DNA from: an uncultured Clostridia bacterium | GTDB lineage: Bacteria; Bacillota; Clostridia; UBA1381 | DNA length: 64,000 nucleotides | Direction of reading: 5' to 3' | Assembly: GCA_947623955.1 (NCBI GenBank) | Contig: CANQIP010000003.1 | Location: 62,001 to 126,000 of the forward strand | In this document: positions 2,802 through 16,917 of the stretch, in pieces | Layout: the number at the start of each line of letters is the position of its first letter | Position numbering within the stretch: the stretch's first letter is position 1 | The notes under the pieces: model-generated | Database searches by the model: none | The model's input: only the letters and a program-made list of their open reading frames with translations | What the model was told of the DNA's origin: nothing | Position numbers and translations under genes: made by a program

Positions 2802-2869
2802 CTATTGATTTATTGGCAAAAATAGTATAAAATATGCTTTTTAAGAAAAATTGCTATAAAAAACACTCA

Positions 2870-3090
2870 ATAATTGCAGTAGACCGAGGTAGACAGCAGT
2901 TGTCGGGAGTAGACAGGAGTAGACAAATACAAGGGTAACAAGGAATTAAAGAAAATGGCTTAGATATGCCGTTTGAGTAGACTGGAGTAGTCAGGAGTAG
3001 ACAACGCGTTAGGGTAAAAACAAGGGTAAAATTCTTAAATTTACCCATAAATAAAAAAACGCAAGGGTAAACAAGGGTAACGTCCAAAAC
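2870..3090 (+). repeat. Iterated short motifs at the left end of the accessory island
   Basis: No gene is convincing in 2802-3560. This part is filled with two families of short direct repeats. The first is agtagac or ggagtagac, occurring about seven times between 2878 and 3003. The second is caagggtaa or agggtaaaa, occurring at about 2933, 3011, 3023, 3063 and 3073. The second family recurs just after the tyrosine integrase gene near 16743. Short repeated sites flanking both ends are what arm-type binding sites of a lambda/Tn916-type integrase look like. The att role is inference; the repeats are directly visible. Confidence 0.6.
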
Positions 3091-3203
3091 GAACCCGCCA
3101 AACTGATTTTTTAAACACATAGATGATATAAGCAGACAAGCCGTATTGCCGGTTTATATGATTTATGTCAAAATACCATCTTTGCAACGACATAAGTCAC
3201 ATA

Positions 3204-3238
3204 GAGACCACCTTCTCCCTATTAGGCGGTCTTTTTTT
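3204..3238 (+). terminator. Intrinsic terminator
   Basis: Hairpin of AGACCACCT with AGGCGGTCT around a short loop, followed by seven T. It sits in the non-coding left end of the island with no intact gene directly upstream, so it is probably left over from an older element. Confidence 0.6.
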
Positions 3239-3273
3239 GTGCAGCAGTTTATACATGCTGTGTACTGAAGGGT

Positions 3274-3301
3274 ATAGGTTCAAGTCCTATCGTCAGCACC
3301 A
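3274..3301 (+). pseudogene. tRNA 3'-end fragment (T arm, acceptor strand, CCA)
   Basis: The sequence has a perfect T arm (ATAGG, TTCAAGT loop, CCTAT), then CGTCAGC, a discriminator A and CCA. The matching 5' acceptor strand GCTGACG is not found in the bases upstream, so no complete tRNA exists here. A bare tRNA 3' end inside an accessory island usually marks a former integration site. Confidence 0.6.
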
Positions 3302-3394
3302 AAAATATAGGGATGGGATATTGTATAATATATCTAAGCATAAAAATCGGTAATTGTTCGATGGAGCACTCTGAATTCATGCAAAATTGAATAA

Positions 3395-3508
3395 CACAAG
3401 CGAATGAAACGTCCACTGAAAACGGGTAAGCTGTACAAATTTGAAATGCCCAAGGAATTTAAAAGGGCGAAAGCCGCTGATTGTTCGTTATTTAAAATTA
3501 TAGATTGA
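3395..3508 (+). pseudogene. 3' fragment of a ParB-like (DUF6551-type) gene
   Basis: This short open stretch has no start. It translates to HKRMKRPLKTGKLYKFEMPK and onward, then a stop. It matches the last 25 or so residues of the ParB-like gene at 8456-9271 (KRMKHPLKLGKLRKFEMPKE) at protein level and closely at DNA level. It is therefore the tail of a second, related gene whose body has been lost. It lies directly before the inositol-phosphatase-family gene, so similar tails flank 3.5-9.2 kb. Confidence 0.75.
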
Positions 3509-3560
3509 TTTTAACGACCGCCCATGTTAAAATAAAGAAAAAATACAAGCGGAGGGCGAC

Positions 3561-4349
3561 ATGCGAACAGATACGGAATTAATCAAATCCCTGGCATACC
3601 AAACGAAGGACATCACAACCGACCGCGCGCTCGTGGGAACGGTCAGCGAAAAAGGTCGCGCCGATTTTGTCACATCGGTCGACACTGGCGTGCAGGATTT
3701 TCTCGAGCGCGAGCTTTTGGCGCGTTATCCCGGCACGCAGCTTTTGGGCGAGGAAGGACGCCGGCATGAAATCGATCCGAACGGCGCGATTTTGATTTTA
3801 GACCCGATTGACGGCACGACGAATCTTATCTACGACTACCGCATGAGCGCGGTTTCGCTTGCGCTGTACGACGGCGGCGAAATCGTGACGAGTATTGTTT
3901 ACAACCCGTTCACCGAGGAAATGTTCACCGCCGAAAAGAGCGGCGGCGCGTATTTAAACGGCGTCCGCATCCGCGTCACGACCACGAAAACCGTGTCGGA
4001 AAGCCTTATCGCCATCGGCACGTCGCCGTATGAAAAGGAGCGCGCGGACAGGAATTTCGAGGTTTTCAAAAATATTTACAAGGCGTCGCTTGACATTCGT
4101 CGCAGCGGTTCCGCCGCGCTCGATTTGTACTATGTCGCCGTCGGCCGCATCGACGGATTTATGGAGCAGAATTTGAAACCGTGGGATTTCGCGGCGGGTA
4201 TGCTGATTTTATCCGAGGCGGGCGGCGTGGTGACGGATTATTTCGGCAGCGCGGTGAATCCGCTTGCAAACTCTGACATCCTTGCCTCAAACGGATTCAT
4301 CCACGCGAGCTCATGCGGTTTTGGAAATAGCTTTGCAAAAAAGATATAA
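3561..4349 (+). CDS. Inositol monophosphatase family protein
   Basis: Mg-dependent phosphatase fold of the IMPase/SuhB superfamily, acting on inositol monophosphate or related sugar phosphates. Motifs are in order: the LLGEEGRR glutamate, the metal-binding LILDPIDGTTNL, and the late WDFAAGMLILSEAGG motif. The length of 262 residues is normal. The start follows a good ribosome binding site (ggaggg). The gene is richer in GC than the recombinase operon beside it and uses ATC/ATT for isoleucine, unlike the host ATA style, so it may have come from elsewhere. The last residues (ASSCGFGNSFAKKI) look abnormal. Restoring one G near 4306 would give HAELMRFWK and a stop, a more family-like end, so a one-base deletion is likely. 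The core enzyme should be unaffected. Confidence 0.88.
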   Translation: MRTDTELIKSLAYQTKDITTDRALVGTVSEKGRADFVTSVDTGVQDFLERELLARYPGTQLLGEEGRRHEIDPNGAILILDPIDGTTNLIYDYRMSAVSLALYDGGEIVTSIVYNPFTEEMFTAEKSGGAYLNGVRIRVTTTKTVSESLIAIGTSPYEKERADRNFEVFKNIYKASLDIRRSGSAALDLYYVAVGRIDGFMEQNLKPWDFAAGMLILSEAGGVVTDYFGSAVNPLANSDILASNGFIHASSCGFGNSFAKKI

Positions 4350-4357
4350 TCCTGTCA

Positions 4358-4702
4358 TTATTGCGGATGATTTTGCATCGAGTTCATTATCACTTTCGCA
4401 ATCAAATAAATTATCCGCCGCTGTTCTTCATCGCATTGCGACAAAATCAAATCCATCTCAATATGATAGGACGAAGCGTCCGCCTTTTGCTGACCGTAAA
4501 GCAGCTCATTAACGGTAACGTTGAGCGCATCCACTATTTTAATAAGCGTTTTCACGCTCATTATTTTCTTCCCACATTCGATATAGCTTATATAAGAAAC
4601 GGACAAATCTGTCATCTCCGCAAGCTCCGCCTGTGTAAATCCCATCTGGCAGCGTACTTCCTGCACTCTTTTTCCTATTGTGTGTTTTAAATCTGATTTC
4701 AT
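4358..4702 (-). CDS. XRE-family transcriptional repressor
   Basis: A 114-residue protein with an N-terminal Cro/C1-type helix-turn-helix at about residues 9-65 (VQEVRCQMGFTQAELAEM, LSVSYISYIECGKK, MSVKTLIKIVDALNVTVNELL). A helical tail follows that could serve dimerisation. It is transcribed away from the serine recombinase, and a perfect 12-bp inverted repeat lies in the gap between them, so it probably represses itself and the recombinase operon. The start follows aaggagg. It converges on the phosphatase gene with an 8-base gap. The arrangement resembles a prophage or integrative-element maintenance switch. Confidence 0.88.
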   Translation of the reverse strand: MKSDLKHTIGKRVQEVRCQMGFTQAELAEMTDLSVSYISYIECGKKIMSVKTLIKIVDALNVTVNELLYGQQKADASSYHIEMDLILSQCDEEQRRIIYLIAKVIMNSMQNHPQ

Positions 4703-4729
4703 AATTCAAGCCTCCTTTTTGATTATTAT

Positions 4730-4757
4730 ACTATAGGTCAACAGCTTGACCTATAGT
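4730..4757. promoter_or_regulatory. Palindromic operator between XRE repressor and recombinase operon
   Basis: The arms ACTATAGGTCAA and TTGACCTATAGT are a perfect 12-bp inverted repeat around a CAGC spacer. The repeat lies next to a TATAAT box for the repressor gene (4725-4730, minus strand) and carries a TTGACC that could be a -35 box for the recombinase. Its position supports repressor binding that controls both directions. The binding itself is inferred. Confidence 0.7.
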
Positions 4758-4818
4758 CGGTTTAAATTTTAAAAGAGATATTGTATTATATTGTCATAAA
4801 AAATTCGGGAGGATAAAA

Positions 4819-6657
4819 ATGGAAAAAAAAGAAAGTAAAAAAGAGCAAATACGCAAGCGGTATCAGGGCATTGATCAAGATGAAATAGACGTAATACCCG
4901 CTATTCCCGAGGATGATGTTTTCGAGGCGGATAAGGAGAAACGGGTAGCTGTATACGTAAGAGTTTCCACGGGCGATCCGAGGCAGACCTCATCATACGA
5001 ACTGCAAAAAAATCATTACTCGGACGTCGTAAGCCGCCATCCCAACTGGTCCCTCGTAAAAATATACGCGGATGAAGGGATTACCGGGACATCTCTTAAT
5101 CATCGGGACGCGTTTAATGAAATGATACGTGATTGTTACGACGGCAAAATAGACTTGATTATTGCCAAGAGCGTGTCGCGGTTTGCCCGCAATGTTATGG
5201 ACTGCGTAGGCTACGTACGGCAATTAGCGCAATTACCTTCCCCTATCGGGATCTTTTTCGAAGCTGAAAACATTTACACCCTGGACAAAGACAGCGAACT
5301 GATATTAACCATAATATCGGCATTGGCACAGGAAGAAAGTCACAATAAAAGCGAATCCATGAACGCCTCAATAGAAATGCGTTTTCGGCGCGGAATATTT
5401 CTTACGCCCCCTCTGCTCGGGTATGACCTGGATGAAAACGGAGAGCTTACAATAAACGAAAAGGAAGCAAGCGTTGTCAGGCTTATTTTTTTCATGTACC
5501 TATATGGATTTACCTGCGCTCAAATCGCAAAAACGCTTACCAATCTCGCATGTAAAACAAAACCCGGCAATACAGAATGGGCACCCGGTTCCGTGCTTGG
5601 CATTCTCCGCAATGAACGTTACTGCGGCGATGTGCTGGCAAGAAAAACATGGACTCCGAACTACCTTGACCATAAGTCAAAAAAGAACAGGCGGAACCGG
5701 AACCAATACCGCACATATGACCACCATGACGCCATCATTTCCAGAGCAGATTTTATAGCCGTACAGCAATTTATAGATAATGCCAAATACGGTGATAACA
5801 GATTCCTACCCGAATTAAAGGTTGTCAATCAAGGGGCTTTAAGCGGATTTGTAATGGTACACCCGCGGTGGGCGGGATTTAAGGCAAAGGATTATTTTGC
5901 CGCGGTTGCAAGTGTTCAAATTGATGAAGAGTATGAGTTTAATCCCGAAATTGAACTCAACGACGGGGAATTTGACTTACGTAATTATGAGATAGCAAGA
6001 TCGCAGTTTTTCAATATAAGCGGGAAACCGTTTATGACAATTTCTAATCGAGAAATAATGTTCAGCGATAAATGCATACATAAATTTGATGAAAATCAAT
6101 ACATAGACATTCTTATTTCTCCCAATAAGCGGTTAATCGCTGTGCGTCCGTCCGATAAAGGCAAAAAGAACGCGCTTCGATGGGCTAAATATAAAGATGG
6201 TGATATTGTTCCCAGAAAAATCAGCGGCGTCGCGTTCCTTGGCACCATATATGAAATTCTCGGTTGGAATTTAGTGTGGAATTATCGCATACAAGGAACA
6301 TATTACAGCCGTGATGATTTACCCGTATTGATTTTTGATATGAGCGACGCCGAGGTTATAATGCGCGAATCGGATAGTGACCAACAACCGGTCAATAAAG
6401 AGAATTCTTTATCGACAACAGGAAAAAGTGTTATAGCATATCCGACGGAATGGATACACGATTTCGGATATAATTTCTATACTCATGCGCAGGTAAAAGA
6501 GTTGGAAGGATATGCGAAAACCGGGAAATGGGACACTGACAGCGAAGGAATTGGCTATAAAGACAGTGCTGTATCTGAGATGTCCGACAAGAATGAAATA
6601 AAGGAAAACATAACAAACGCAATAGATGAAATAGAAAAGAGGAAAAACGATGAGTGA
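4819..6657 (+). CDS. Large serine recombinase with an unusual C-terminal domain
   Basis: Site-specific DNA recombinase, probably an integrase or excisionase for an element. The resolvase catalytic domain spans about residues 43-190, with YVRVSTGD supplying the nucleophile S50 and R48, then LIIAKSVSRFARN and the long E-helix region. The recombinase domain spans about 195-320 (LLGYDLDENG, ILRNERYCGDV). No zinc-ribbon cysteine pairs are seen. Instead there is a C-terminal region (about 395-560) with YIDILISPNKRLIAVRPS, LGWN, VLIFDMSDAEV and YPTEWIHDFG. This region reappears in the next two proteins. RBS gggagg. The gene is first in a five-gene run in which each start overlaps the previous stop. 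The family is certain; the role of the tail is unknown. Confidence 0.92.
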   Translation: MEKKESKKEQIRKRYQGIDQDEIDVIPAIPEDDVFEADKEKRVAVYVRVSTGDPRQTSSYELQKNHYSDVVSRHPNWSLVKIYADEGITGTSLNHRDAFNEMIRDCYDGKIDLIIAKSVSRFARNVMDCVGYVRQLAQLPSPIGIFFEAENIYTLDKDSELILTIISALAQEESHNKSESMNASIEMRFRRGIFLTPPLLGYDLDENGELTINEKEASVVRLIFFMYLYGFTCAQIAKTLTNLACKTKPGNTEWAPGSVLGILRNERYCGDVLARKTWTPNYLDHKSKKNRRNRNQYRTYDHHDAIISRADFIAVQQFIDNAKYGDNRFLPELKVVNQGALSGFVMVHPRWAGFKAKDYFAAVASVQIDEEYEFNPEIELNDGEFDLRNYEIARSQFFNISGKPFMTISNREIMFSDKCIHKFDENQYIDILISPNKRLIAVRPSDKGKKNALRWAKYKDGDIVPRKISGVAFLGTIYEILGWNLVWNYRIQGTYYSRDDLPVLIFDMSDAEVIMRESDSDQQPVNKENSLSTTGKSVIAYPTEWIHDFGYNFYTHAQVKELEGYAKTGKWDTDSEGIGYKDSAVSEMSDKNEIKENITNAIDEIEKRKNDE

Positions 6658-7288
6658 TACTGCGAATAATGATGAGTTCAGCTACAGCGGTTATCAGGTG
6701 GTTCGCGGAGAATTTTTCGCTCATATCAAAGAGCCGTCGCTCACCTTTAATAACTGCAAAATATATGTAAATGCCGCTTGTCTTAACAAGTCGCCGCAAA
6801 CAGATTTTGTACATATCCTTATCAATCCCACAGAGAAAAAGCTTGTAATTCGTCCGTGCAATGAAGAAGAGAAGGATTCGTTCTGTTGGAGATCAAACAG
6901 CGCCAAGCGGCGCCCCAAGCAGGTTACTTGCAAAATATTTTTCGCGAAGGTTGTGGAGCTTATGGACTGGAATCCGGCTTACCGGTACAAACTCATCGGG
7001 AAGTTGGTTCGTTCAAACGGGCAATATCTCTTCGTATTTGATTTAAAAACCGCCGAGATATTCAAGCGCGTTATAAACGCGGATAATAAGCTTAAATCAT
7101 CGCGCATACCGGCATTTCCGGAGGATTGGAAGGATCAGTTCGGTCTGCCGTACGATGAACACCGTAAATCCCTTAAGGTAAATATCGTTGACGGATACGC
7201 CGTATTCAAGCTTGAAAACAACAGAGCTAAAACCGTGTATAACGCTAACGAGCAAATAGAAATAGGAGAGCAAAACGATGACAAATAA
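6650..7288 (+). CDS. Accessory protein sharing the recombinase C-terminal domain (copy 2)
   Basis: Unnamed 212-residue protein with no catalytic resolvase domain. Residues about 20-172 align with the recombinase tail: FVHILINPTEKKLVIRPC against YIDILISPNKRLIAVRPS, MDWNPAYRYKLIGK against LGWNLVWNYRIQGT, LFVFDLKTAEIF against VLIFDMSDAEVI, and FPEDWKDQFG against YPTEWIHDFG. It overlaps the recombinase gene by 8 bases and the next gene by 11, so it is tightly coupled to both. It could be a DNA-binding or assembly partner of the recombinase, possibly a directionality factor, but nothing in the sequence proves this. Not a known named family to me. Confidence 0.8.
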   Translation: MSDTANNDEFSYSGYQVVRGEFFAHIKEPSLTFNNCKIYVNAACLNKSPQTDFVHILINPTEKKLVIRPCNEEEKDSFCWRSNSAKRRPKQVTCKIFFAKVVELMDWNPAYRYKLIGKLVRSNGQYLFVFDLKTAEIFKRVINADNKLKSSRIPAFPEDWKDQFGLPYDEHRKSLKVNIVDGYAVFKLENNRAKTVYNANEQIEIGEQNDDK

Positions 7289-7664
7289 AAATCCGACAAT
7301 TTCCATAAACCTGAAGTATTCATGGATTGTCATACACAAACTTACGCTTAAATTATTAGGAAATCCCGAATATATTCAGATATTAGTAAATCCGGCGGAA
7401 AAATCCATAGTCTTATGCCGCAGCACAAAAAAAGATCATCTCGCGCAGCATGTTCGTGAAGATGTTTTTACAAGCTGCAAGGTAACGTACAGAATACATA
7501 GTCAATTGCTTGTCAAAGGTCTGCAAAAAACATATCCCGCATGGAATAATGAAAATACATATCAGATAAAGGGAAAGTTTATGCCCGCTTTAAATATTAT
7601 TAAATTTCGTATGAAAGACTCGGAGATAGTAACCGATAACGGCGGAGATAATTGCTATGAATAA
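7278..7664 (+). CDS. Small accessory protein, partial copy of the recombinase C-terminal domain (copy 3)
   Basis: A 128-residue protein of unknown function. Residues about 30-120 resemble the start of the domain shared by the two preceding proteins: YIQILVNPAEKSIVLCRS matches YIDILISPNKRLIAVRPS, and YQIKGKFMPALNIIKFRMKDSEIV matches the GTYY to DAEV part. The final PxEWxxxFG segment is missing. The start overlaps the previous gene by 11 bases and the stop overlaps the next start by 8. The divergence between copies suggests old duplications kept by selection. No signal peptide or membrane segment. Confidence 0.75.
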   Translation: MTNKNPTISINLKYSWIVIHKLTLKLLGNPEYIQILVNPAEKSIVLCRSTKKDHLAQHVREDVFTSCKVTYRIHSQLLVKGLQKTYPAWNNENTYQIKGKFMPALNIIKFRMKDSEIVTDNGGDNCYE

Positions 7665-8463
7665 ATATTCCGACAGAAAAAGCGAAATTATGGACAGATT
7701 AAAAGCGTATATTGAAGCAGCGTCTCTCGAGTCTGTAAAAATAATTAATAACGATATTAAAGCCAGCGCCCACGATAATATTGAAAACGCTATTATATCA
7801 ATATGCAATCATCAGCTTTTGTGCAAAGGTACAACCGTGGAGATGAAAAGATATCTTATCGGAAAAATATACCGTATAGAAATGGTGATAAATAAAAACA
7901 TCCGGCGGCCGCAATCAACATCATTGTCTGATTACATAATGGAAGTCGTAAGCGTTCGGTATGGCATTTCTCCTGCCCTTGTAAGCAAGTATAGCACATT
8001 TTCCAAAGCGATAGATAGATGTATAAATAAAAAAGCATTGTCAACCGCAAAAATATTGCGCGGCAGCCTGAAAATTCCTTATGACTATATATCAAAGTTG
8101 TCAAATATGTCGGATTTTGATATTGAATATTTGCAATCTTTGTTCCATGAGGATTTTTATAAGCTCGCGGGATATATTCTTATCAAAGACGGAAAATTTG
8201 ATTTGAATTGCCCCGCATATGAAAAACCACATGCGACGACTGCGCTGATAAAACAAATGCCTAAGCACGACCCCGATGCCATGATAACAAGCTTGTCGCT
8301 TACCGCCTCTTCATGGATCAATTCAATACAAAAAACCGTGTCGTTATCCGATATAAGTCAAATCTCCGAGGATGCGAAAGTAAATTTATATGTGCAGCTA
8401 AGTGAATTAAAAGATGAAATCGAAAAAACATTAATAATTCTGGAGGAAAAATACGATGGATGA
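7657..8463 (+). CDS. Hypothetical protein with ParB-type helix-turn-helix look
   Basis: I do not recognise a named family for this 268-residue protein. The middle (about residues 97-160) reads VVSVRYGISPALVSKYSTFSKAIDRC, then ALSTAKILRGSLKIPYDYISKLSNMS. That is the pattern of the ParB/KorB helix-turn-helix: a first helix-turn-helix for DNA contact, then a stretch of helices. The N-terminal 90 residues are helical and Lys-rich. The C-terminus ends in an acidic helix that may form a coiled coil. It overlaps both neighbours by 8 bases and directly precedes a protein with a ParB nuclease-fold domain. The pair could be a ParB-type protein split into HTH and N-terminal parts. Function is inferred only from this. 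Confidence 0.7.
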   Translation: MNKYSDRKSEIMDRLKAYIEAASLESVKIINNDIKASAHDNIENAIISICNHQLLCKGTTVEMKRYLIGKIYRIEMVINKNIRRPQSTSLSDYIMEVVSVRYGISPALVSKYSTFSKAIDRCINKKALSTAKILRGSLKIPYDYISKLSNMSDFDIEYLQSLFHEDFYKLAGYILIKDGKFDLNCPAYEKPHATTALIKQMPKHDPDAMITSLSLTASSWINSIQKTVSLSDISQISEDAKVNLYVQLSELKDEIEKTLIILEEKYDG

Positions 8464-9271
8464 TTTTCAGGAGTTTATACCTAATGTAAATTTTGAGCTT
8501 ATACCTATAAAAAATCTTGTTTCCAATCAGGAATATCAGAGAAACCTGTCAACGGCGCACGTGGAGCGGGCCGCCAAGAATTTTGACCTTTGCCAGGTTA
8601 ATCCTGTTAAAATCAGCCGCAGAAACGGCGTAAATTACGTTTTCAACGGTCAGCATACAATTGAAATTATAGCGCTCGTATCCGGGTCACGTGAGACTCC
8701 CGTATGGTGTATGGTTTATGATGACCTTGAATATGAACAGGAGGCGGACATATTCGCGAACCAGATGAAATATGTAAGACCACTGCTGCCGTATGAAATA
8801 TTTATGGCGAATGTTGAAGCCGGCAACGATAAGCAGCTTATTATAAAAGAGCTTGTCGAATCATACGGTATGAAAATCTCGCGCAACAATAAATTCGGCA
8901 GAATCTGCGCGGTCACAACGCTTGAAAGGATTTACGACAGATACGGATTTCACATCCTTAGTCATGTGCTGCGTCTTTGCATCGGCACATGGGAAGGAAG
9001 CTTTAATTCTCTCAGCGGAAATATTATGAGCGGAGTGTCGCATCTGATTGCCGCGTTCGGAGACGAATTAAAGGACGACACTTTTAAGGAAAAGCTCGGA
9101 GTAGTATCAATCAAGGAAATTACCCGAAGCGCAAAAGAGCGCGGCAACGGTTCTATGGGATACGCCGAAGCCATGCTAAATGAATACAACAAGCGCATGA
9201 AACACCCGCTGAAACTAGGTAAACTGCGCAAATTTGAAATGCCCAAGGAATTGAAAAAGAGCGGACGATAA
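8456..9271 (+). CDS. ParB/sulfiredoxin-fold protein (DUF6551-like)
   Basis: Last gene of the recombinase operon, 271 residues. The N-terminal domain has the ParB/Srx pattern: LIPIKNLVSNQEYQRNLS, then HVERAAKNFD, VNPVKISRRNG and VFNGQHTIEII, where GQHT takes the place of the GxHR nucleotide-binding motif. The rest is helical. In ParB relatives this fold binds or hydrolyses CTP, or acts as a nuclease; which applies here cannot be told. Its last 25 residues are nearly repeated in a scrap at 3395-3508. It overlaps the preceding gene by 8 bases. No terminator was seen directly after it; insertion-sequence debris begins about 20 bases downstream. Confidence 0.82.
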   Translation: MDDFQEFIPNVNFELIPIKNLVSNQEYQRNLSTAHVERAAKNFDLCQVNPVKISRRNGVNYVFNGQHTIEIIALVSGSRETPVWCMVYDDLEYEQEADIFANQMKYVRPLLPYEIFMANVEAGNDKQLIIKELVESYGMKISRNNKFGRICAVTTLERIYDRYGFHILSHVLRLCIGTWEGSFNSLSGNIMSGVSHLIAAFGDELKDDTFKEKLGVVSIKEITRSAKERGNGSMGYAEAMLNEYNKRMKHPLKLGKLRKFEMPKELKKSGR

Positions 9272-9290
9272 TCAATATTCACTTCGAACA

Positions 9291-10030
9291 ATACGGGACC
9301 CCCAATTTTGTGTAAACTCCAAAATGAACATATAATCTGAGTAATATTACGAGGGATGAAATCCATATTATGGGGTTCATCTCTTAGTTAATATATAGCA
9401 TGAAATCGTCGGCATGTCAAGGGCTCCCTCATCGAGGGCGTTCATTTTACCCTTTATTTGCCCACAGATTTTATGCCACTGCTCCAATCGGTCAGCGAAA
9501 ATACCTCCAGTTGAGAGTGGATTTGTCCCCAACCCCACATCAGCGACGGACACAGCATTTCCAGCAGACTGTCATCGGTCGGAAATACGACTTTGACTTC
9601 GTTACCTTACGCAATTGACAATCAAATCCTTCTAGCGCATTGGTAGTATAAATCAGCGTCCGCACCTCCTGCGGATACTTGAAATACGTCGATAACCGGA
9701 GCCAGTTAGCGTTCCACGACTGAGAGCAATTTTTGGATATTTGCTGTTCCATTTTCACCTAGTATGAAACAAACCGGGTTTTCATCGTTTTTGTGCTGTG
9801 ACCGTTTCGGCTGTTGTCGGTGGATTTGCTGCGATAGTCGTACCGGCTGTAACCCAACTCCTCGTCAAGCTCGACCTCAAGACCGTTTTCCAGCACATCG
9901 CCGACAAATTCCTTGAAGTCGCATATTTCCAACAGTATTACTCCTTCGTTTCAGTCAATTTGCGGTCAATTTCCGCTCAATGTAATTCCGTCACTTTTCA
10001 AATATAATTATATTACACAAAACAAAAAAC
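9291..10030 (-). mobile_element. Decayed IS256-family (mutator-type) insertion sequence
   Basis: Only pieces of the transposase survive, all on minus. An N-terminal piece near 9780-9945 reads DFKEFVGDVLENGLEVELDE, then LGYSRYDY and TDNSRNGHSTKT. It is followed, after a deletion, by a C-terminal piece near 9540-9758 with RTLIYTTNALEGFDCQLRKV. Both are typical of IS256 transposases; the catalytic middle is gone. Candidate ends share TTTTGTGTAA: one near 9299-9312 and the other, inverted, near 10012-10024. The element cannot move by itself. Confidence 0.8.
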
Positions 10031-10149
10031 TAAATACAGCAATACAAAAATTGTAAAATTATTCGATAAAGGCATTGATTTTACGGGCTTTTGGCGGTAT
10101 AATGTTACTATACAAAATCTTGAATTGCTGTTTGGAAAGGAAGGAACAT

Positions 10150-10325
10150 GAGCCCTACTTTTAATTTACTCAAATCATCTGAAAGGAATGTAATCTTTTC
10201 AAAGAGTACGTTAAAGCCTTCCATACTGTTATGAAAGGTGAATGTTTTACAGAGAACCTCCCCTCTGAATTACAGATAAAGCAATCGTGCTTATCCTTTG
10301 CCACATCAATGCCTACCAAAATCAT
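10150..10325 (-). pseudogene. Truncated, frameshifted IS110-family transposase (N-terminal part)
   Basis: The start MILVGIDVAKDKHDCFICNS is the first RuvC-like DEDD motif of IS110 transposases. A frameshift follows: another frame continues as FTFHNSMEGFNVLFEKI and then SDDLSKLKVGL, which is also IS110-like. The gene is cut off after about 60 codons. Ribosome binding site aaaggag. Confidence 0.75.
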
Positions 10326-10505
10326 ATTAAAAACTCCTTTGTAAAGTATTTGATATTGTAAGACCCACAGGGTCTCATTGCTCTTGTAACCTCGTTCCAA
10401 ATAAACCGTCGAGCAGTATCTGACTGATTAACAAACTGCAAAGAGTCTGTGGTTGTAGCCTTTCTTAAACCGTCAAGCGGTAGGAGAAACGAACCAAGGC
10501 TTTCA
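10326..10505 (-). ncRNA. IS110 left-end non-coding region, possible bridge RNA remnant
   Basis: About 180 bases lie between the IS110 transposase start and the IS3 fragment. In IS110-group elements such as IS621 the left non-coding end encodes the bridge RNA that pairs with target and donor. The length fits, and a small hairpin (AGACCC/GGGTCT near 10360-10375) lies before the gene. I cannot fold the RNA here, so the call is by position only. Confidence 0.35.
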
Positions 10506-10512
10506 GTATACC

Positions 10513-10832
10513 TCACAAGCGTACTTTAAGCTAACAACCTTATACGGCATTACGCCGTCAATGTCAAGACGCGGGAACCCATATGATAATGCGATGGCAG
10601 AGAATTTTTTCTCCATACTGAAAGCGGAATGTATCCACAGAATGAAACTACGAACATTTGAAGAGGCTCGCGCAGTTATTGATGAATATATATACTTTTA
10701 CAATAATCAACGGATTCAATTAAAAACAAAACTGACACCGTTAGAAAAACGATGTCAGTATGTTGCTTGAATGTGAATGTTTTACCATAGATACTCTTTT
10801 TTTGTACTGTCTGTATATTCTGGGGCAGTTCA
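10513..10832 (+). mobile_element. IS3-family (IS150-like) fragment: end of OrfB and right inverted repeat
   Basis: The frame is open from 10513 (SQAYFKLTTLYGITPS) through MSRRGNPYDNAMAENFFSIL to LTPLEKRCQYVA and a stop at 10770. This is the last third of the IS3 DDE integrase with its final catalytic Glu region (NAMAENFFSILKAE). The downstream sequence ends in ggggcagttca (10822-10832), the complement of the usual IS3 TGAACTGCCCC terminus. The upstream part is missing and abuts the IS110 left end. Confidence 0.8.
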
Positions 10833-10852
10833 TATAGGAAGGGAGAACTAAT

Positions 10853-11545
10853 ATGTATAGCTTAAAAAGAGAGGTATGGGGAAAAAGGATAAAGAAAATT
10901 TTTAGTTCCTTTTCATTCAAGGCGCAGATGTTTCAAACAGCTTTATTGGAAATACAATTTATGCTGCATGAAGTAGAAAACGACAAGAAAAAGCTTGATA
11001 TTCTTCAATTTCTTACAAAATGCGTTATCAATGATATATGCGCCTCATATGCTGCCAAACCGATATATTGTCATTTGGAAAGAAACAAACATCTTACTAT
11101 ATTTCCGTCTGTAACAGATACAGGAGAAAAAGGTGAGGTAGATTTTACACAAACACCTGTTTTAAGCTTTCCGTGGGAAAGTAAAAAATTTCGTGAGGTC
11201 GTCCGGTCTTTTGCAAATATTGGTTTTGATAAAAGTAAATATGACGGTATGGTAACATATTTCAAAGACTTAAATTTTGCCGTGATAATGACCCACTATC
11301 ATTCGACTGCGGCAGCGTCTGTGATACGTCAAGGAACGGCAAAAGCGTGTATAATGGATTTGACGACAGGCTATGAACGGTATACGACAGACGGGGCGCA
11401 ATATTTTCTTAAAGAGGAATATATAGCACAAAAGAAGAAAATCGACATATATGATACATATGATTATCGGTTTGCGGTTCTGTTCGTTTTGGGACAGATG
11501 CAATACGACATTCAGAAAAATCATAATAAACATTATACATGGTAA
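10853..11545 (+). CDS. Hypothetical protein, resembles DUF6710
   Basis: A 230-residue soluble protein of unknown function; no signal peptide or transmembrane segment. The pattern VLSFPWESKKFREVVRSFANIG, then NFAVIMTHYHSTAAASVIRQG and YDYRFAVLFVLGQ recalls the DUF6710 family, which occurs in clostridial mobile regions; this is recollection, not a search result. The start follows aagggagaacta. It sits just after IS3 debris and is AT-rich like the rest of the island. A pair of about 60-base repeats lies right after its stop. Confidence 0.6.
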   Translation: MYSLKREVWGKRIKKIFSSFSFKAQMFQTALLEIQFMLHEVENDKKKLDILQFLTKCVINDICASYAAKPIYCHLERNKHLTIFPSVTDTGEKGEVDFTQTPVLSFPWESKKFREVVRSFANIGFDKSKYDGMVTYFKDLNFAVIMTHYHSTAAASVIRQGTAKACIMDLTTGYERYTTDGAQYFLKEEYIAQKKKIDIYDTYDYRFAVLFVLGQMQYDIQKNHNKHYTW

Positions 11546-11550
11546 AACAA

Positions 11551-11708
11551 GTAGGGAAGGGACAGCCCGAATTTAAGCTTGATGTAAGGCAAGAAGTCGT
11601 AAGACAGTCCACAAAAACCCTAGAAAAAAATATATATAGCAATATATGTAGGGAAGGGACAGCCCGAAATCATGCTTATGTAAAAGTAAGAAGTTATATA
11701 CAGTCCAC
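11551..11708 (+). repeat. Two tandem copies of a roughly 61-base non-coding repeat
   Basis: Copy 1 (11551-11612) and copy 2 (11648-11708) both begin gtagggaagggacagcccga and both end acagtccac, with a partly conserved middle (gctt, taag, aagaagt). A third acagtccac stands alone at 11734-11742. The repeats share no reading frame, so conservation is at DNA or RNA level. The 11546-11882 stretch otherwise holds only a TATAAT box near 11795 and a terminator-like hairpin. Confidence 0.7.
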
Positions 11709-11825
11709 CTGTGATGGATTTTTATAAAATATAACAGTCCACTATTTTTCTCCAAGGAATAATCTCTTGACAAAAGACATCATTCGTGATACAGTATAAT
11801 TATCAGGTATGAAGGATTTTATTAA

Positions 11826-11852
11826 GGGAAAGTGCGCTTGCTTTCCCTTTTT
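11826..11852 (+). terminator. Terminator-like hairpin in the leader of the next gene
   Basis: GGGAAAG pairs with CTTTCCC around an 8-base loop, followed by five T. It lies between a TATAAT box (11795-11800) and the gene start at 11883, so a transcript from that box would have to read through it. It could be an attenuator, or could end an upstream transcript. Confidence 0.65.
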
Positions 11853-11882
11853 GTATTTTTATTGAAAGGAGAACAAACAACA

Positions 11883-13139
11883 ATGAATGAGAATAAGAAA
11901 AAGGTCATAACTACCATAGTGGCTATAATAGCGATAATCGGTATAGTCGTTGTGGGAATTATCCTGTCACATAAGAGCCGGAACGGTGAAAAGCCGTATG
12001 TACCGGGCAACCCGACACAAACTGACGACCAATCATCGGCAGATGACCCGAACAGTTCCGATTATGCCGAGCCGATGCCGACATACAGTGCGGCAAATTA
12101 CTTGAACGACAAAGTATTATCGGCGCAGGATAAGCAGGGTAATATGTTATCTGTCGGCGTTCAAGGCGTAGACTTTGACGGACTGATATTTGCACCGCAG
12201 TATTCCAATGCGGGACAAAATTACAAGGTGGGTTATTACATAAACTATCGCAGTAATAATTCATTATTCCTTGCATCGGACACGGAGTATTCGGATATTG
12301 AGAGCGTAAAGGGAAATAACGTATTTATCTCTCAAACCTACGACAGACTTAAAACGGCTGAGTATACAGATAACAACAACTTTGGTGTAGCGTTTAAACT
12401 TCCCATCGGACCGCCTCCGTTACCGGAAATGAACGTAAAGATAACAGCGGTAAGAATGGACACGCACAATGTTCTGGGTTCATATACACTGGTTATAGCG
12501 TATGAAGATGAGAAGTTTTGCTTTAAAGAACTGTATAACAACGATGTAACGCTGATACCTGAAGATAAACTACGTGAACGGTGGAATGTCAGCGGTTCAA
12601 ACCAAGAAACGGTCGATGATATAAACGAGGGCTTTAAACGTCAGGAAGCACGGTTAAAGGCGCAGGGAAATGAAGGTTCGGGCTTTGAGATGCTGACCCT
12701 GACCCCGTATGAGAACGTAGATTTTAACGCTATAAGCGATAAACTTATTGCACAAGCCAAAGCAATCCGGGATTCCGGGGATTTCGGTACAAGCGATGAG
12801 CCGATGGAGTTAAGCACATTCGTTGAACTTGCCATACAACCGGCACAAAAGCTATATCTGACAAGTGCGCATGATGTAAAATATGTCATGGATGAGTTTC
12901 AAAGTCCTGTATGGGCGGTGACAATTAACTCCATCAACCCAAATGTCGGGGCATATACGTATTATTTTACAGTGGAAAACATAACGCAGTATATGAATAA
13001 CGAACTTGCATTTGTGGGTATGGATTTTGCAACCAAAGATACGGCAGAGCATTACACCAATCTTACGAAAGAGCCGATAGAACGGTATCAGGAAGGCTAT
13101 TCGGGGGACGAAGAAGCCGCTGAAGCTGAACAGGAATAA
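11883..13139 (+). CDS. Membrane-anchored hypothetical protein
   Basis: A 418-residue protein with a short Lys-rich N-terminus and one transmembrane helix (about residues 8-29, ITTIVAIIAIIGIVVVGIIL). A Pro/Asp/Ser-rich linker and a large extracellular region follow. The C-terminus is acidic (EEAAEAEQE). No family is recognised. The ATG at 11883 is chosen over a GTG 51 bases upstream because it has a good ribosome binding site (aaaggag) and puts the membrane helix at the N-terminus; the upstream choice would run through the leader hairpin. It is followed by the first of three identical terminators. Confidence 0.75.
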   Translation: MNENKKKVITTIVAIIAIIGIVVVGIILSHKSRNGEKPYVPGNPTQTDDQSSADDPNSSDYAEPMPTYSAANYLNDKVLSAQDKQGNMLSVGVQGVDFDGLIFAPQYSNAGQNYKVGYYINYRSNNSLFLASDTEYSDIESVKGNNVFISQTYDRLKTAEYTDNNNFGVAFKLPIGPPPLPEMNVKITAVRMDTHNVLGSYTLVIAYEDEKFCFKELYNNDVTLIPEDKLRERWNVSGSNQETVDDINEGFKRQEARLKAQGNEGSGFEMLTLTPYENVDFNAISDKLIAQAKAIRDSGDFGTSDEPMELSTFVELAIQPAQKLYLTSAHDVKYVMDEFQSPVWAVTINSINPNVGAYTYYFTVENITQYMNNELAFVGMDFATKDTAEHYTNLTKEPIERYQEGYSGDEEAAEAEQE

Positions 13140-13147
13140 ACAAGAGA

Positions 13148-13173
13148 AGAAGGTCGTTTGACCTTCTTTTTTT
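13148..13173 (+). terminator. Intrinsic terminator, shared copy 1
   Basis: AGAAGGTC, a GTTT loop and GACCTTCT, then six T. The same hairpin ends the next two transcription units (14309 and 14592). Confidence 0.9.
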
Positions 13174-13184
13174 GTGCGTAAAGC

Positions 13185-13212
13185 TTGACTTTATCGTAAT
13201 TTGTGGTATAAT
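13185..13212 (+). promoter_or_regulatory. SigA-type promoter
   Basis: TTGACT (13185-13190), a 16-base spacer, then TATAAT (13207-13212). It reads towards a leader hairpin and the PD-(D/E)XK gene at 13343. A second TTGCAA/TATAAT pair (13294-13322) sits closer to that gene. Confidence 0.65.
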
Positions 13213-13240
13213 TAACTTAAATAGATATGAAGTTTATTTT

Positions 13241-13272
13241 AAGAGGAAAAGTGTATGTTTTTCCTCTTTTTT
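13241..13272 (+). terminator. Terminator-like hairpin in the leader of the PD-(D/E)XK gene
   Basis: AAGAGGAAAA pairs with TTTTTCCTCTT around a short loop, then a T run. It lies 29 bases after the -10 box and about 70 bases before the gene, like the hairpin at 11826. Confidence 0.65.
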
Positions 13273-13342
13273 GATGAAAAGTTTATAAATCTATTGCAAA
13301 ATAAAGAAATTTATATTATAATGTAAAGGAGGAGAACAATTT

Positions 13343-14294
13343 ATGGACGAAAAGACAAACATATCTGAAACCATCGACGCTGCATCAGGGCGCAATCCGA
13401 GAATGGATAATATAGCCAAAAGGCTGTTGGCGCATAAAGAAATCCTTGCGCATATCCTAAAAGGAGCCGTTCTTGAATATAAAGATTGCAGTATACAGGA
13501 AATCATCGACTGCATCGAAGGAGAGCCGCAAGTAGGTTGTGTGGGAGTACATCCCGATACGACAAACATACATGGACTGCCTAACGAGGACGTGACTATC
13601 ACGGAAGGTAAAATCGTGTATGACATACGATTTACCGCTCGTGTCCCGAACGAGGAAGGTCATGTAAGCCTTATTATCAACGTTGAGGCACAAATATAGA
13701 AGCAATCCGGGGTATTCGCTGATTAAACGCGGCATATACTATTGTAGCAGATTGATTTCAGCGCAGAAGGAAACCGAGTTCACACACTCGGAGTACGATA
13801 AGATAAAGAAAGTCTATTCCATCTGGATATGCACAAAAGCACCTAAAGAGATAGAGGGTTCTGTATCGCATATCTATCTGACCGGTGAAAATTCAAAAAA
13901 TGTTGTTTTTGCCGAGAAAAAGGAATACGATTTACTTCATCTTGTTATGGTTTATCTTAGCGAGGACTTAGGGATAAAGGAAGATATGATTCGTCTTTTA
14001 AATTCCCTTTTCTCAAATGAGATAGGCACAGAAGTGAAAAAAGACATTCTGGAAAACGATTTCAGCATAAAAATGACCGAGAATTTGGATAAGGAGGTTA
14101 GTGAGATGTGCAATATAAGCGAAGGAGTTTATGAAAAGGGCGTCGAAAAAGGCATCGCACAAGGAGTAACACAGGCTAACATTGAAACAGCAAAAAAATT
14201 ATTAAAGCTTAATTCGTATACGTTCAAACAAATTGCCGAACTTGTCAGCCTCCCTGTTGAGGAAGTTGAAAAATTGGCAGTAGTAAATGTATAA
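13343..14294 (+). pseudogene. PD-(D/E)XK nuclease family (Rpn-like) protein, frameshifted
   Basis: Two overlapping frames together make one protein. The first (13343-13699) ends YDIRFTARVPNEEGHVSLII, NVEAQ and a stop; the second frame carries on with NPGYSLIKRGIYYCSRLISA and about 190 more residues. The D...ExQ pattern (YDI, then NVEAQ) is the nuclease core of the Rpn/recombination-promoting family. One extra A in the run after GAGGCACAA (near 13693) would explain the shift. The C-terminus ends in a helix-rich tail (YEKGVEKGIAQGVTQANIETAKKLL, KQIAELVSLPVEEVEKLA) that recurs alone in the gene at 14399. RBS aaaggagg. It is either broken or needs a +1 frameshift. Confidence 0.8.
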
Positions 14295-14308
14295 CCAAAA
14301 ACAAGAAA

Positions 14309-14334
14309 AGAAGGTCGTTTGACCTTCTTTTTTT
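14309..14334 (+). terminator. Intrinsic terminator, shared copy 2
   Basis: Same AGAAGGTC-GTTT-GACCTTCT hairpin and T run as at 13148, placed 15 bases after the nuclease-family gene. Confidence 0.9.
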
Positions 14335-14346
14335 GTGTATAAGAGT

Positions 14347-14374
14347 TTGACATGATAAGAATTTATGATATAAT
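14347..14374 (+). promoter_or_regulatory. SigA-type promoter for the small tail-like gene
   Basis: TTGACA (14347-14352), a 16-base spacer, TATAAT (14369-14374). The ribosome binding site begins about 9 bases later, so the leader is very short. Confidence 0.75.
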
Positions 14375-14398
14375 GTAATTATAAAAGGAGTGACTGAC

Positions 14399-14578
14399 AT
14401 GTGTGATATTATGGAACGTCTTATGCGGGAGAATAATGAACAAAGCTACGAAAAAGGAAGACAGGAAGAAAAAATTTCCATGATAAAAAATGCAATCGCA
14501 AAAGGATATACCTATAATGATATTGCGGAATTTGTTAATCTCTCCGTAGAGGAAGTAAAAGGATTGGCAAATGCATAG
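14399..14578 (+). CDS. Small protein homologous to the tail of the Rpn-like nuclease
   Basis: A 59-residue protein: MCDIMERLMRENNEQSYEKG, then RQEEKISMIKNAIAKGYTYNDIAEFVNLSVEEVKGL. It matches the C-terminal tail of the preceding nuclease-family protein (MCNISEGVYEKG..., FKQIAELVSLPVEEVEKL) but has no nuclease domain. It has its own promoter, a ribosome binding site (aaaggag) eight bases before the ATG, and its own copy of the shared terminator, so it looks like an expressed gene rather than a scrap. The ATG is preferred over a GTG nine bases upstream, which lies inside the ribosome binding site. It might compete with or regulate the nuclease-family protein through the shared tail. Confidence 0.7.
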   Translation: MCDIMERLMRENNEQSYEKGRQEEKISMIKNAIAKGYTYNDIAEFVNLSVEEVKGLANA

Positions 14579-14591
14579 CCAAAAAGAGAAA

Positions 14592-14616
14592 AGAAGGTCG
14601 TTTGACCTTCTTTTTT
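14592..14616 (+). terminator. Intrinsic terminator, shared copy 3
   Basis: Third copy of the AGAAGGTC-GTTT-GACCTTCT hairpin with a T run, 13 bases after the small gene. Confidence 0.9.
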
Positions 14617-14921
14617 GTGTGTTTTTCAGTTTTTTGCTTTTGTGAGTAATTTTTTATAAAGGTAGCCCCAACCTTGTTTGTGCTTATTTACAGACCCTCT
14701 CGTTCCACAAGCACTTTTCGCGCTTGTGTTGCCGTGCGAATAACCTCTCCGAGTTCCTCAAAAGAAAGCGCATCGAAAACATCTGTGGCAAACGGTAGAA
14801 TATTAAACAGACTCCGAGCCGAGGCAGGAGAGTATAACAGGAAACATACACGGAAGATTGACATTCCGAGGTTATATCCCGAGCAAAAAACAAGTGCGTA
14901 GGGTTGAAAGGAAGAAAGAAC
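14617..14921. other. Stretch without a supportable gene
   Basis: Both strands have short open frames here (for example 14674-14901 on plus), but none has a convincing start and ribosome binding site or a family motif. It may be the remains of an older element gene. The end of the stretch supplies the ribosome binding site (aaaggaag) of the gene at 14922. Confidence 0.5.
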
Positions 14922-15233
14922 ATGGCTAAAGAACCGTCCATGCTTGACATTGATGATGTTACGACGATAGGAACGATGAATAACTATGAAAAATTGGCGT
15001 TCGCAATCATATTACAGGCAGTTAAAGACTATCGCCGTGCTGTACACAACGAGAAAATGTGTGTAGTGAAAGAGTGTGAGCGGTTCTTTACAGGTAAATG
15101 GTTCGAGGCTTTAACAACTTTGCTGGGAACGGTCATACTGGAAAAACTGCGTCAGGAAGATGGGAAGAAACCAAAGAAACCGAAGAAACAAGCGGAAAAG
15201 GGTAAGAGAGGACGACCACGCAAGAAGGAGTAG
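14922..15233 (+). CDS. Small element protein with AT-hook-like tail
   Basis: A 103-residue protein. The body (NYEKLAFAIILQAVKDYRRA, then ECERFFTGKWFEALTTL) is of a kind seen next to excisionase and integrase in clostridial integrative elements. The C-terminus is very basic (KKPKKPKKQAEKGKRGRPRKKE) and contains the AT-hook core GRPRK, suggesting minor-groove DNA binding. The stop is 6 bases before the excisionase start, so they form one operon. The ATG after gaaaggaag is preferred to an upstream TTG. The function is not known; an accessory role in integration or excision is inferred. Confidence 0.7.
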   Translation: MAKEPSMLDIDDVTTIGTMNNYEKLAFAIILQAVKDYRRAVHNEKMCVVKECERFFTGKWFEALTTLLGTVILEKLRQEDGKKPKKPKKQAEKGKRGRPRKKE

Positions 15234-15239
15234 AAGGGC

Positions 15240-15431
15240 ATGACAGACGTTGAAACGACCGGTGATGAGTACATAACTCGCAAAGAGGCGGCAGCGTACC
15301 TGAAGATAAGCGAGCGCAGTGTTGACAGGCTTATCAACAGCAAGAACTTTGACGGTGTGCAGCGTATAGGACGATGCGTGAGAATACATAAACCATCACT
15401 GGATAAGTATTTAGCCAGACGGCGGGAATAA
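15240..15431 (+). CDS. xis: Excisionase (MerR-like HTH_17 family)
   Basis: A 63-residue protein that is almost entirely a winged-helix DNA-binding domain of the excisionase/HTH_17 type: YITRKEAAAYLKISERSVDR, LINSKNFDGVQRIGRCVRIH, KPSLDKYLARR. Such proteins bend DNA at att sites and steer the tyrosine integrase towards excision. It sits between the AT-hook protein and the integrase gene, the usual order in Tn916-like modules. The ribosome binding site is weak (aaggag at 15225-15230). Confidence 0.85.
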   Translation: MTDVETTGDEYITRKEAAAYLKISERSVDRLINSKNFDGVQRIGRCVRIHKPSLDKYLARRRE

Positions 15432-15473
15432 AAGGCAAAAAATATATCAGATTGAAAAGAAATCCCGTTGTTA

Positions 15474-15502
15474 TTGACTAATAAGGCATTTTGTGGTATA
15501 AT
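15474..15502 (+). promoter_or_regulatory. Promoter of the integrase gene
   Basis: TTGACT (15474-15479), a 17-base spacer, TATAAT (15497-15502). A leader of about 50 bases follows, before the gaggagg of the integrase gene. It lets the integrase be made separately from xis. Confidence 0.7.
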
Positions 15503-15561
15503 ATATCCACAAAAAATCAGTAATGGCGGGTTTTGCTTTTTAATCATGAGGAGGAATTAAA

Positions 15562-16749
15562 ATGGCAAAACGAGCCAATGGAGAGGGAACAATCCGAAAA
15601 AGAACAACCAAGAAGGGAAGTGTATACTGGGAAGGTCGATATTACGACCCTACAACAAAGAAACAGCACAGCATCTATGGGAATACAAAAGAAGAAGTAA
15701 GAAGGCAACTGACACAAAAAACAATAGAAAAAGATAACGGTAAATTCGTCAGTCATAACAATATAACGCTTGATATGTGGTATGAAAGCTATATCAAACT
15801 GTATAAGGAAGGCGTAATCAGACCGCAAAGTCTACAAATAATACGCGACCGATATTCTCGTTATATACAACCATATTTAGGAAATGAGGAATTACAGGAT
15901 ATATCGGATATGGACATAAAGAACATGCTTAACAAAATAGCAGAAGTTCATACTACCGACACAGTCAAATTGATACGCTCAAACCTAAAATCTATATTTG
16001 AGAAAGCTGTCGAAAAAAAATTAATTATATCCAATCCCGTAGCAAATATCCCTCCAATGAAAGGAAGAAAAGAAAATTTTTCAAAACGGGAACTGACCGA
16101 CGATGAAATATCTTGGTTTATGACGGGCATTAAGGAAAAACGACCGGATGATTTACTGTTATTTCAATTATTATTAACAACAGGTGCAAGAATAGGTGAG
16201 ATATTGGGGTTAAAATGGAGTGATTTTGCCGAAGATTACTCATATGTAACTATCAGCAGAACAACGACAAAATACAAAGATGGTAACGACTGGGTCAAAA
16301 CATCAAATGAGCCAAAAACCAAAACTTCTATTCGTACCCTTCCTATCTTACCTGAAATACAATCCGAACTACAATCATGGAAAAAGAAATTACAGCTTAT
16401 TGCCAAACAGTTTAATACGACATTTAGCGACGATAATTTTGTATTCTATAATTATAAAAAGGATTGTATATATACCGCAGACTACTATGACGGTGTAATA
16501 AATGGTATATTACGTTATCTGAAACAAAGATATAACATAGATATACCGCATTTTTCTGTGCACTATTTCAGACATACGTTCACAACGAATGCTATACGAA
16601 ATAACGTACCGATGGAAGTATTAAAAACTTTATTAGGGCATAGTAACTATACCATGATAAGCCGAGTATACGCTCATACTTCACAAGAGGATAAAATGAA
16701 CGCAGTCACAGAAATGTTTAACGCTAACCCAAACATCAAATCAGGGTAA
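15562..16749 (+). CDS. int: Tyrosine site-specific integrase (Tn916-Int-like)
   Basis: A 395-residue integrase. The N-terminal part (NGEGTIRKRTTKKGSVYWEG) is the arm-type-site binding domain, followed by a SAM-like core-binding domain (about 70-165) and the catalytic domain. The catalytic set is visible: R in TTGARIGEILGLKW, H-x-x-R in HYFRHTF, H in LLGHSNYTMISRVY and the nucleophile Y in RVYAHTS. It is complete and probably active. Together with xis and the AT-hook protein it forms the right end of the island. Repeats like those at the island's left end begin at its stop codon. Confidence 0.95.
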   Translation: MAKRANGEGTIRKRTTKKGSVYWEGRYYDPTTKKQHSIYGNTKEEVRRQLTQKTIEKDNGKFVSHNNITLDMWYESYIKLYKEGVIRPQSLQIIRDRYSRYIQPYLGNEELQDISDMDIKNMLNKIAEVHTTDTVKLIRSNLKSIFEKAVEKKLIISNPVANIPPMKGRKENFSKRELTDDEISWFMTGIKEKRPDDLLLFQLLLTTGARIGEILGLKWSDFAEDYSYVTISRTTTKYKDGNDWVKTSNEPKTKTSIRTLPILPEIQSELQSWKKKLQLIAKQFNTTFSDDNFVFYNYKKDCIYTADYYDGVINGILRYLKQRYNIDIPHFSVHYFRHTFTTNAIRNNVPMEVLKTLLGHSNYTMISRVYAHTSQEDKMNAVTEMFNANPNIKSG

Positions 16750-16795
16750 AATTAGGGTAAAATAATAATCTTAAAAATTTTACCCTTAAAACAAA
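16742..16795 (+). repeat. agggtaaaa repeats at the right end of the island
   Basis: Two direct copies of agggtaaaa and an inverted ttttaccct follow within 50 bases of the integrase stop. The same motif is iterated at 2933-3085. They are candidate arm-type sites and place the right boundary of the island between here and pgi (16918). No core duplication could be fixed with confidence. Confidence 0.5.
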
Positions 16796-16917
16796 CAAAA
16801 GAATGTAGTGTTTATGCGAGTTTAATAAACGAAAGAATATTAAACAAAATTACAAAAATAAGTATAAATATATGACAATAAATGTAATTCATACAAAATA
16901 CAGGAGGATATACGAAA

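Follow-up and report, generated by a model that had tools for sequence, protein, structure and literature searches.

Serine integrases are in use as tools, and the individual parts of the system described below are already known: serine recombinases, ParB folds, DUF6551 and the third recombinase of the streptococcal prophage Phi1207.3. The authors of the Phi1207.3 paper proposed a tandem pair of recombinases as the agent of excision and integration and reported a third one; orf2 is among the three, and in the available part of the paper no specific role is assigned to orf2 or orf3 (PMC4260502). ParB, KorB and Noc are CTP switches, and a 2025 survey of ParB-CTPases includes DUF6551 and states, in the part available, that phage proteins combining a ParB fold with DUF6551 bind CTP or ATP (PMC12704722). 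We analysed a stretch of 64,000 nucleotides from an uncultured Clostridia bacterium (contig CANQIP010000003.1, positions 62,001 to 126,000; this whole stretch is called the window), in which a serine recombinase is encoded together with two relatives of its own tail and two proteins of ParB type. The genes in question are the following:

4358-4702, minus strand: XRE/Cro-CI type repressor, divergent from the operon (PF01381, E 5e-14)
4819-6657, plus strand: large serine recombinase (LSR) with resolvase catalytic and Recombinase domains, followed by a tail module at about residues 395-560
6650-7288, plus strand: T1, a stand-alone tail paralogue (match to the LSR tail at E 4e-20; weak likeness of its fold to MraZ)
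7278-7664, plus strand: T2, a second and shorter tail paralogue, recognised by profile comparison
7657-8463, plus strand: ORF5, a predicted ParB-type protein whose window copy is without most of the N-terminal nucleotide-binding part
8456-9271, plus strand: DUF6551 protein of ParB/Srx type (PF20188, phrog_1033)

A preliminary description of this DNA had claimed a tight operon at 4358-9271 with a divergent XRE gene and starts overlapping the preceding stops. All six genes were found as claimed, and the successive overlaps between LSR, T1, T2, ORF5 and DUF6551 are 8, 11, 8 and 8 bases. To describe the conservation of this arrangement we collected loci by DUF6551 patterns, used the window proteins as queries and kept near-identical loci in the counts. 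The resulting 143 loci comprise 80 genome loci kept from 126 DUF6551 matches, 62 viral contigs and one phage record. LSR, T1, T2 and ORF5 occurred as distinct open reading frames in this order ahead of DUF6551 in 114 of the 143 loci, and the ordered set was complete in 108 of the 119 loci with more than 4.2 kb upstream of the DUF6551 gene; because the loci were found through DUF6551 patterns, this figure is conditional on DUF6551. With looser counting of the five-gene set we obtained 116 of all loci and 109 of those with enough upstream sequence. The 11 incomplete loci were all without a distinct T2 match, L085 additionally without ORF5 and L035 additionally without T1 within the set distance. 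Of the 97 loci with more than 5.8 kb upstream, 96 had an XRE-type match no further than 6.5 kb ahead of the DUF6551 start. The proposed conserved gene set around the recombinase is thus real, and the downstream genes, far from rarely accompanying the recombinase, stand beside it in the great majority of loci.

Between the window and its sister locus L013 the ratio of non-synonymous to synonymous substitution rates (dN/dS) was 0.02-0.09 for XRE, LSR, T1, T2, DUF6551 and the portion of ORF5 past the break in L013, where this gene is split. The synonymous divergence dS was 0.23 for the DUF6551 gene and 0.64-1.10 for the remaining operon genes, and the low DUF6551 value suggests a separate recombination event at that end of the operon. 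The spread is patchy: a DUF6551 match was present in 5 of 101 genomes including the window's own, with one of the matches weak (23% identity) and one partial. DUF6551 proteins at 60-80% identity were encountered in 17 phage records, 16 of which also appear among the T1 and LSR matches listed. Four of these phage records were inspected; they are labelled Candidatus Heliusvirales, come from human faeces and have a tandem of further recombinase genes near the operon.

The window LSR matches PF00239 (E 1e-25) and PF07508 (E 5e-23) and has no further Pfam match; in particular, no Pfam model for a zinc ribbon matches after the Recombinase domain. Both active-site motifs are kept in 109 of 112 full-length LSR relatives, and a CxxC motif beyond residue 320 occurs in one of the 112. 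Judged by its sequence, the operon LSR is a large serine recombinase as regards the catalytic serine and the Recombinase domain and departs from that class in the zinc ribbon. The two domains are shared with large serine integrases such as those of SPbeta and TP901-1, and the sequence matches in the PDB include the SPbeta recombinase (9dxh) and TP901-1 (3bvp). Unlike these integrases, the operon LSR lacks the zinc ribbon, is accompanied by tail paralogues and ParB-type partners and does not track a prophage target. The likeness to the recombinases CcrA, CcrB and CcrC of the staphylococcal cassette chromosome (SCC) is confined to the common domains, and an assignment to CcrA/B/C was rejected with a best score of 95 bits against the curated NCBIfam cut-off of 900. 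Residues 380-595 of the LSR are matched by a stretch of T1 (E 4e-20), and the profiles of T1 and T2 match each other with a probability of 98.5% (E 1.9e-15). The two additional proteins with the recombinase tail that had been proposed are therefore present, T1 by sequence match and T2 by profile. We compared tail, T1 and T2 with the MraZ/AbrB fold, and the MraZ likeness of T1 is a weak match. With Foldseek the predicted fold of T1 gave no match in the PDB at E<=0.001 and two in a viral structure library, the better one to gp105 of Lactococcus phage KSY1 (E 8e-5). A PDB sequence search with T1, ORF5 and DUF6551 returned nothing.

For the last gene the suggested ParB/Srx fold is supported by the matches to PF20188 (E 4e-33) and to phrog_1033, annotated as 'ParB-like partition protein' (E 6e-15). 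The case of ORF5 is mixed. The window protein has no match in Pfam or NCBIfam at E<=1 and a single weak match to a tail protein in PHROG (E 0.014). A ParB-like pattern is visible when its relatives are aligned, and the predicted structure of the full-length homologue L102 (mean predicted local distance difference test score 89) matches ParB, Noc and KorB structures, so that on the strength of this model the ORF5 family has a predicted ParB fold. The ParB-type look noted earlier is upheld for the homologue; the window copy itself is truncated N-terminally, without most of the ParB domain present in relatives, and the L013 copy is broken. Of the parts of a ParABS system, the set has the ParB fold, represented through L102, but a domain search of the operon found no ParA ATPase. 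The operon differs from ParB, KorB and Noc in this absence, in its link to a recombinase and in the loss of most of the nucleotide-binding domain from the window ORF5.

In the prophages examined, the operon's own recombinase does not seem to act as the integrase: it is a distinct LSR pair that tracks the target gene comEC. Four genomes have comEC interrupted by some 56-62 kb of inserted DNA, in which both the pair and the operon lie. Altogether seven loci have a split or cut comEC (L028, L044, L048, L049, L052, L155 and L015/G106, where the pair lies outside the locus), and in all seven the pair scores at least 587 bits against the pair of R. torques. The operon LSRs of these loci interleave with those of loci without comEC. 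The association between pair and comEC is a correlation over seven loci. Eight viral loci with a pair above 580 bits (L100-L103, L105, L106, L110, L148) showed no comEC within the available stretch, and we assume that these contigs stop short of it. A relative of one pair member was present in 144 phage records (E<=1e-60), 81 of them from Streptococcus, and 59 of the 60 records listed had at least two matching places; the operon LSR was present in 18 (E<=1e-90, a cut-off that differs from that of the pair search). We therefore rejected the operon LSR as prophage integrase. The idea of an integrase with accessory proteins is contradicted by these data and by the window, where the island that carries the operon has its own tyrosine integrase.

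The prophages in the genomes of L028, L048, L049 and L015 lie within the competence gene comEC, which they interrupt near codon 250. A coding sequence annotated in the Coprococcus phage record PV036435 (L155:50-1651) is a fragment of host comEC, and this record consequently includes host DNA. A count of phage-like neighbours was discarded as confounded, since one phage record begins with host comEC, and L018 was dropped as an insertion between comEC and holA because holA is located elsewhere.

Solitary copies of the operon sit in islands of other kinds. The window copy is cargo of an island of 14 kb with these features:

2836-16852: 14 kb island carrying the operon, not in the sister genome G008, in which the two flanks adjoin
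3561-4349, plus strand: suhB-type inositol monophosphatase within the island; in L013 an internally deleted copy lies ahead of the operon
15562-16749, plus strand: tyrosine integrase at the right island end (PF00589, E 9e-22)

The empty site is seen in both G008 and G007. Bilifractor porci, Coprococcus comes (G109) and Blautia luti each have cpaF interrupted by an island of 19.6-21.8 kb with the operon at one end. At its opposite end G109 encodes three tyrosine recombinases and a DUF6262 protein, with homologues in B. porci; this trio may resemble the so-called GInt elements. The middle of the cpaF island varies, with an MmeI-type restriction enzyme in G109 and, by eye, a type I system in B. 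porci. Genome G351 has the same island with the operon, and in G259 the same island and flanking genes hold ShosT and ShosA, a system of defence type, in the operon's place. In shosTA, a toxin-antitoxin system, the antitoxin is DprA-like, and in the available part of the source a DprA-phosphoribosyltransferase pair is stated to protect against phages (PMC9122126). We scanned ten further proteins, one from a window gene and nine encoded next to solitary copies in other genomes or contigs. The neighbours include a relaxase and ArdC (L090), MobA/MobL (L036), C5 methylases (L017), a tyrosine recombinase and a GIY-YIG/Schlafen-type helicase (L061), a ParA-like ATPase (L073) and a UvrD/CoiA-type protein (L071); the window gene gave no match.

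A simpler form occupies the same slot in other phages. Beyond the pair, the operon-less phage records PV036429, PV036427 and PV036448 have in this slot a tail-less LSR and, encoded separately, a tail protein of 142-147 amino acids; in one operon-less phage this tail protein matches the T2 profile at 97.7% (E 2e-12). The tail-less LSRs of PV036429, PV036427 and Phi1207.3 share 40-45% identity with the window LSR, and each ends approximately where the window tail starts. In Phi1207.3, orf2 has 40% identity with the window LSR across 362 residues and ends at the tail start, and orf3 is a tail protein, both near the left end of the record; Phi1207.3 differs in that the tail is a separate gene and T1, ORF5 and DUF6551 are absent beside orf2 and orf3. 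Separate tail proteins were found in 20 phage records, ten of them from Streptococcus, Phi1207.3 included. With a two-gene unit in the same slot, the operon of five genes has the look of a more elaborate version; the direction of change from two genes to five is one that we infer.

The gene set, the catalytic motifs, the missing zinc ribbon, the repeated tail, the ParB fold of the ORF5 homologue and the tracking of the target by another recombinase are the computed basis for our tentative reading, to which we give somewhat less than an even chance: an accessory serine-recombinase complex under XRE control, with partners of ParB type, that serves as conflict cargo of temperate phages and genomic islands. 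The tail would take over from the zinc ribbon and coiled coil as the part for DNA binding or synapsis, and T1 and T2 would be non-catalytic partners of the LSR, joined in one subgroup by a putative catalytically dead resolvase head. ORF5 and DUF6551 might act as DNA-binding CTP/ATP switches that license the recombinase, and on relief from XRE the complex would recombine attachment-type sites, either of an incoming element or of one already resident, to the benefit of its carrier. The operon may have grown from the tail-less LSR and tail pair of Phi1207.3-like phages. A bolder version, which we consider unlikely, has catalysis, DNA recognition by the tails, inhibition by the dead head and licensing by ParB-type nucleotide switches divided among five or six proteins that would serve phages and defence islands as weapon or shield by rearranging competitors' DNA. 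The main rival is that the operon controls recombination of its own element, as an excision/directionality or lysogeny module aiding the resident integrase, be it the LSR pair or a tyrosine recombinase. Five prophages have 1.7-8.3 kb between the end of the module and the comEC junction. In the Phi1207.3 record the start of the tail-less LSR and tail is 0.9 kb away from the left end, and the pair stops 0.7 kb short of the right end. The operon LSR occurs in 14 of 14 close-pair records among the matches listed; the Phi1207.3 paper, in its available part, counts all three recombinases as recombination machinery of the prophage (PMC4260502). However, the pair relative is found in 144 phage records against 18 for the operon LSR, at the cut-offs given above, and the solitary copies sit in islands with tyrosine recombinases instead. 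We give this explanation a somewhat lower chance than our own reading.

Strict anti-phage defence or superinfection exclusion, with the recombinase as effector on incoming DNA, would agree with ShosTA in the operon slot of the G259 island and with neighbours such as the MmeI-type enzyme, the C5 methylases, the GIY-YIG/Schlafen-type helicase and ArdC, these neighbours being a plain listing. The phages themselves carry the operon, and the PADLOC models gave no robust match that would place it with known anti-phage defence systems: PDC-M04B was reached by two of 56 T1 proteins, which we took as chance, T2 reached PDC-M64C at E 0.03 and XRE reached generic helix-turn-helix models. We regard this role as improbable. 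The presence in prophages, in cpaF islands, in the tyrosine-integrase island and next to relaxase genes might instead point to an independent element moved by its own recombinase, and in several locus pairs the common block stops at most 0.4 kb past the DUF6551 stop; yet the block ends range from about -160 to +392 and other pairs extend further. A k-mer count downstream of the operon found no common DNA motif that clearly exceeded the shuffled control, we found no site where just the operon was missing, and autonomous movement therefore seems very improbable. Upstream k-mers were only modestly above the shuffled control and appear to be subgroup-specific, and none of 124 locus pairs (at least 85% identity, more than 2.5 kb common) showed an inverted block of 120 bases or more as expected for inversion by the LSR. 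A partition or maintenance module, proposed earlier in view of the two ParB-type proteins, has hardly any probability left, given an operon without ParA, no common motif downstream and examined copies that are integrated in chromosomes or prophages. Target control, the other function suggested earlier, is possible.

The system had been called undescribed-looking, and we found no description in the literature searched, which did not extend to preprints and most subscription journals; the operon, the tail paralogues, the dead head and the exchange with ShosTA in one slot were all absent from it. The words recombinase, integrase and ParB do not occur in the main text, in the part available, of the 2022 paper on Candidatus Heliusviridae (PMC9226167). 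A zinc ribbon traded for a module common to separate partner proteins, beside proteins of ParB type, would be a new mode of control for serine integrases. The proposed complex also offers a testable role for the third recombinase of Phi1207.3-like prophages and for part of the DUF6551 family.

Some further observations concern the surroundings of the window operon. At the site of its island, contig C8 of genome G010 (L184) has about 14 kb of non-matching DNA, and the site is possibly an integration hotspot. The left island end (2878-3080) shows clustered short direct repeats with AGTAGAC and ACAAGGGTAA units. Just 5' of suhB, positions 3385-3464 on the plus strand are a relic of another DUF6551 3' end with 83% identity to 9178-9257, which may be what is left of an older second copy once in the same island. 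The sequence at about 3260-3310 resembles by eye the 3' half of a tRNA with T-arm and CCA end; ARAGORN made no call there. To the right of the operon, 9540-9930 and 10170-10400 look by eye like fragments of IS256-type and IS110-type transposases, and in G351 (L227) a gene of 391 amino acids between cpaF and the operon has an N-terminus similar to these fragments.
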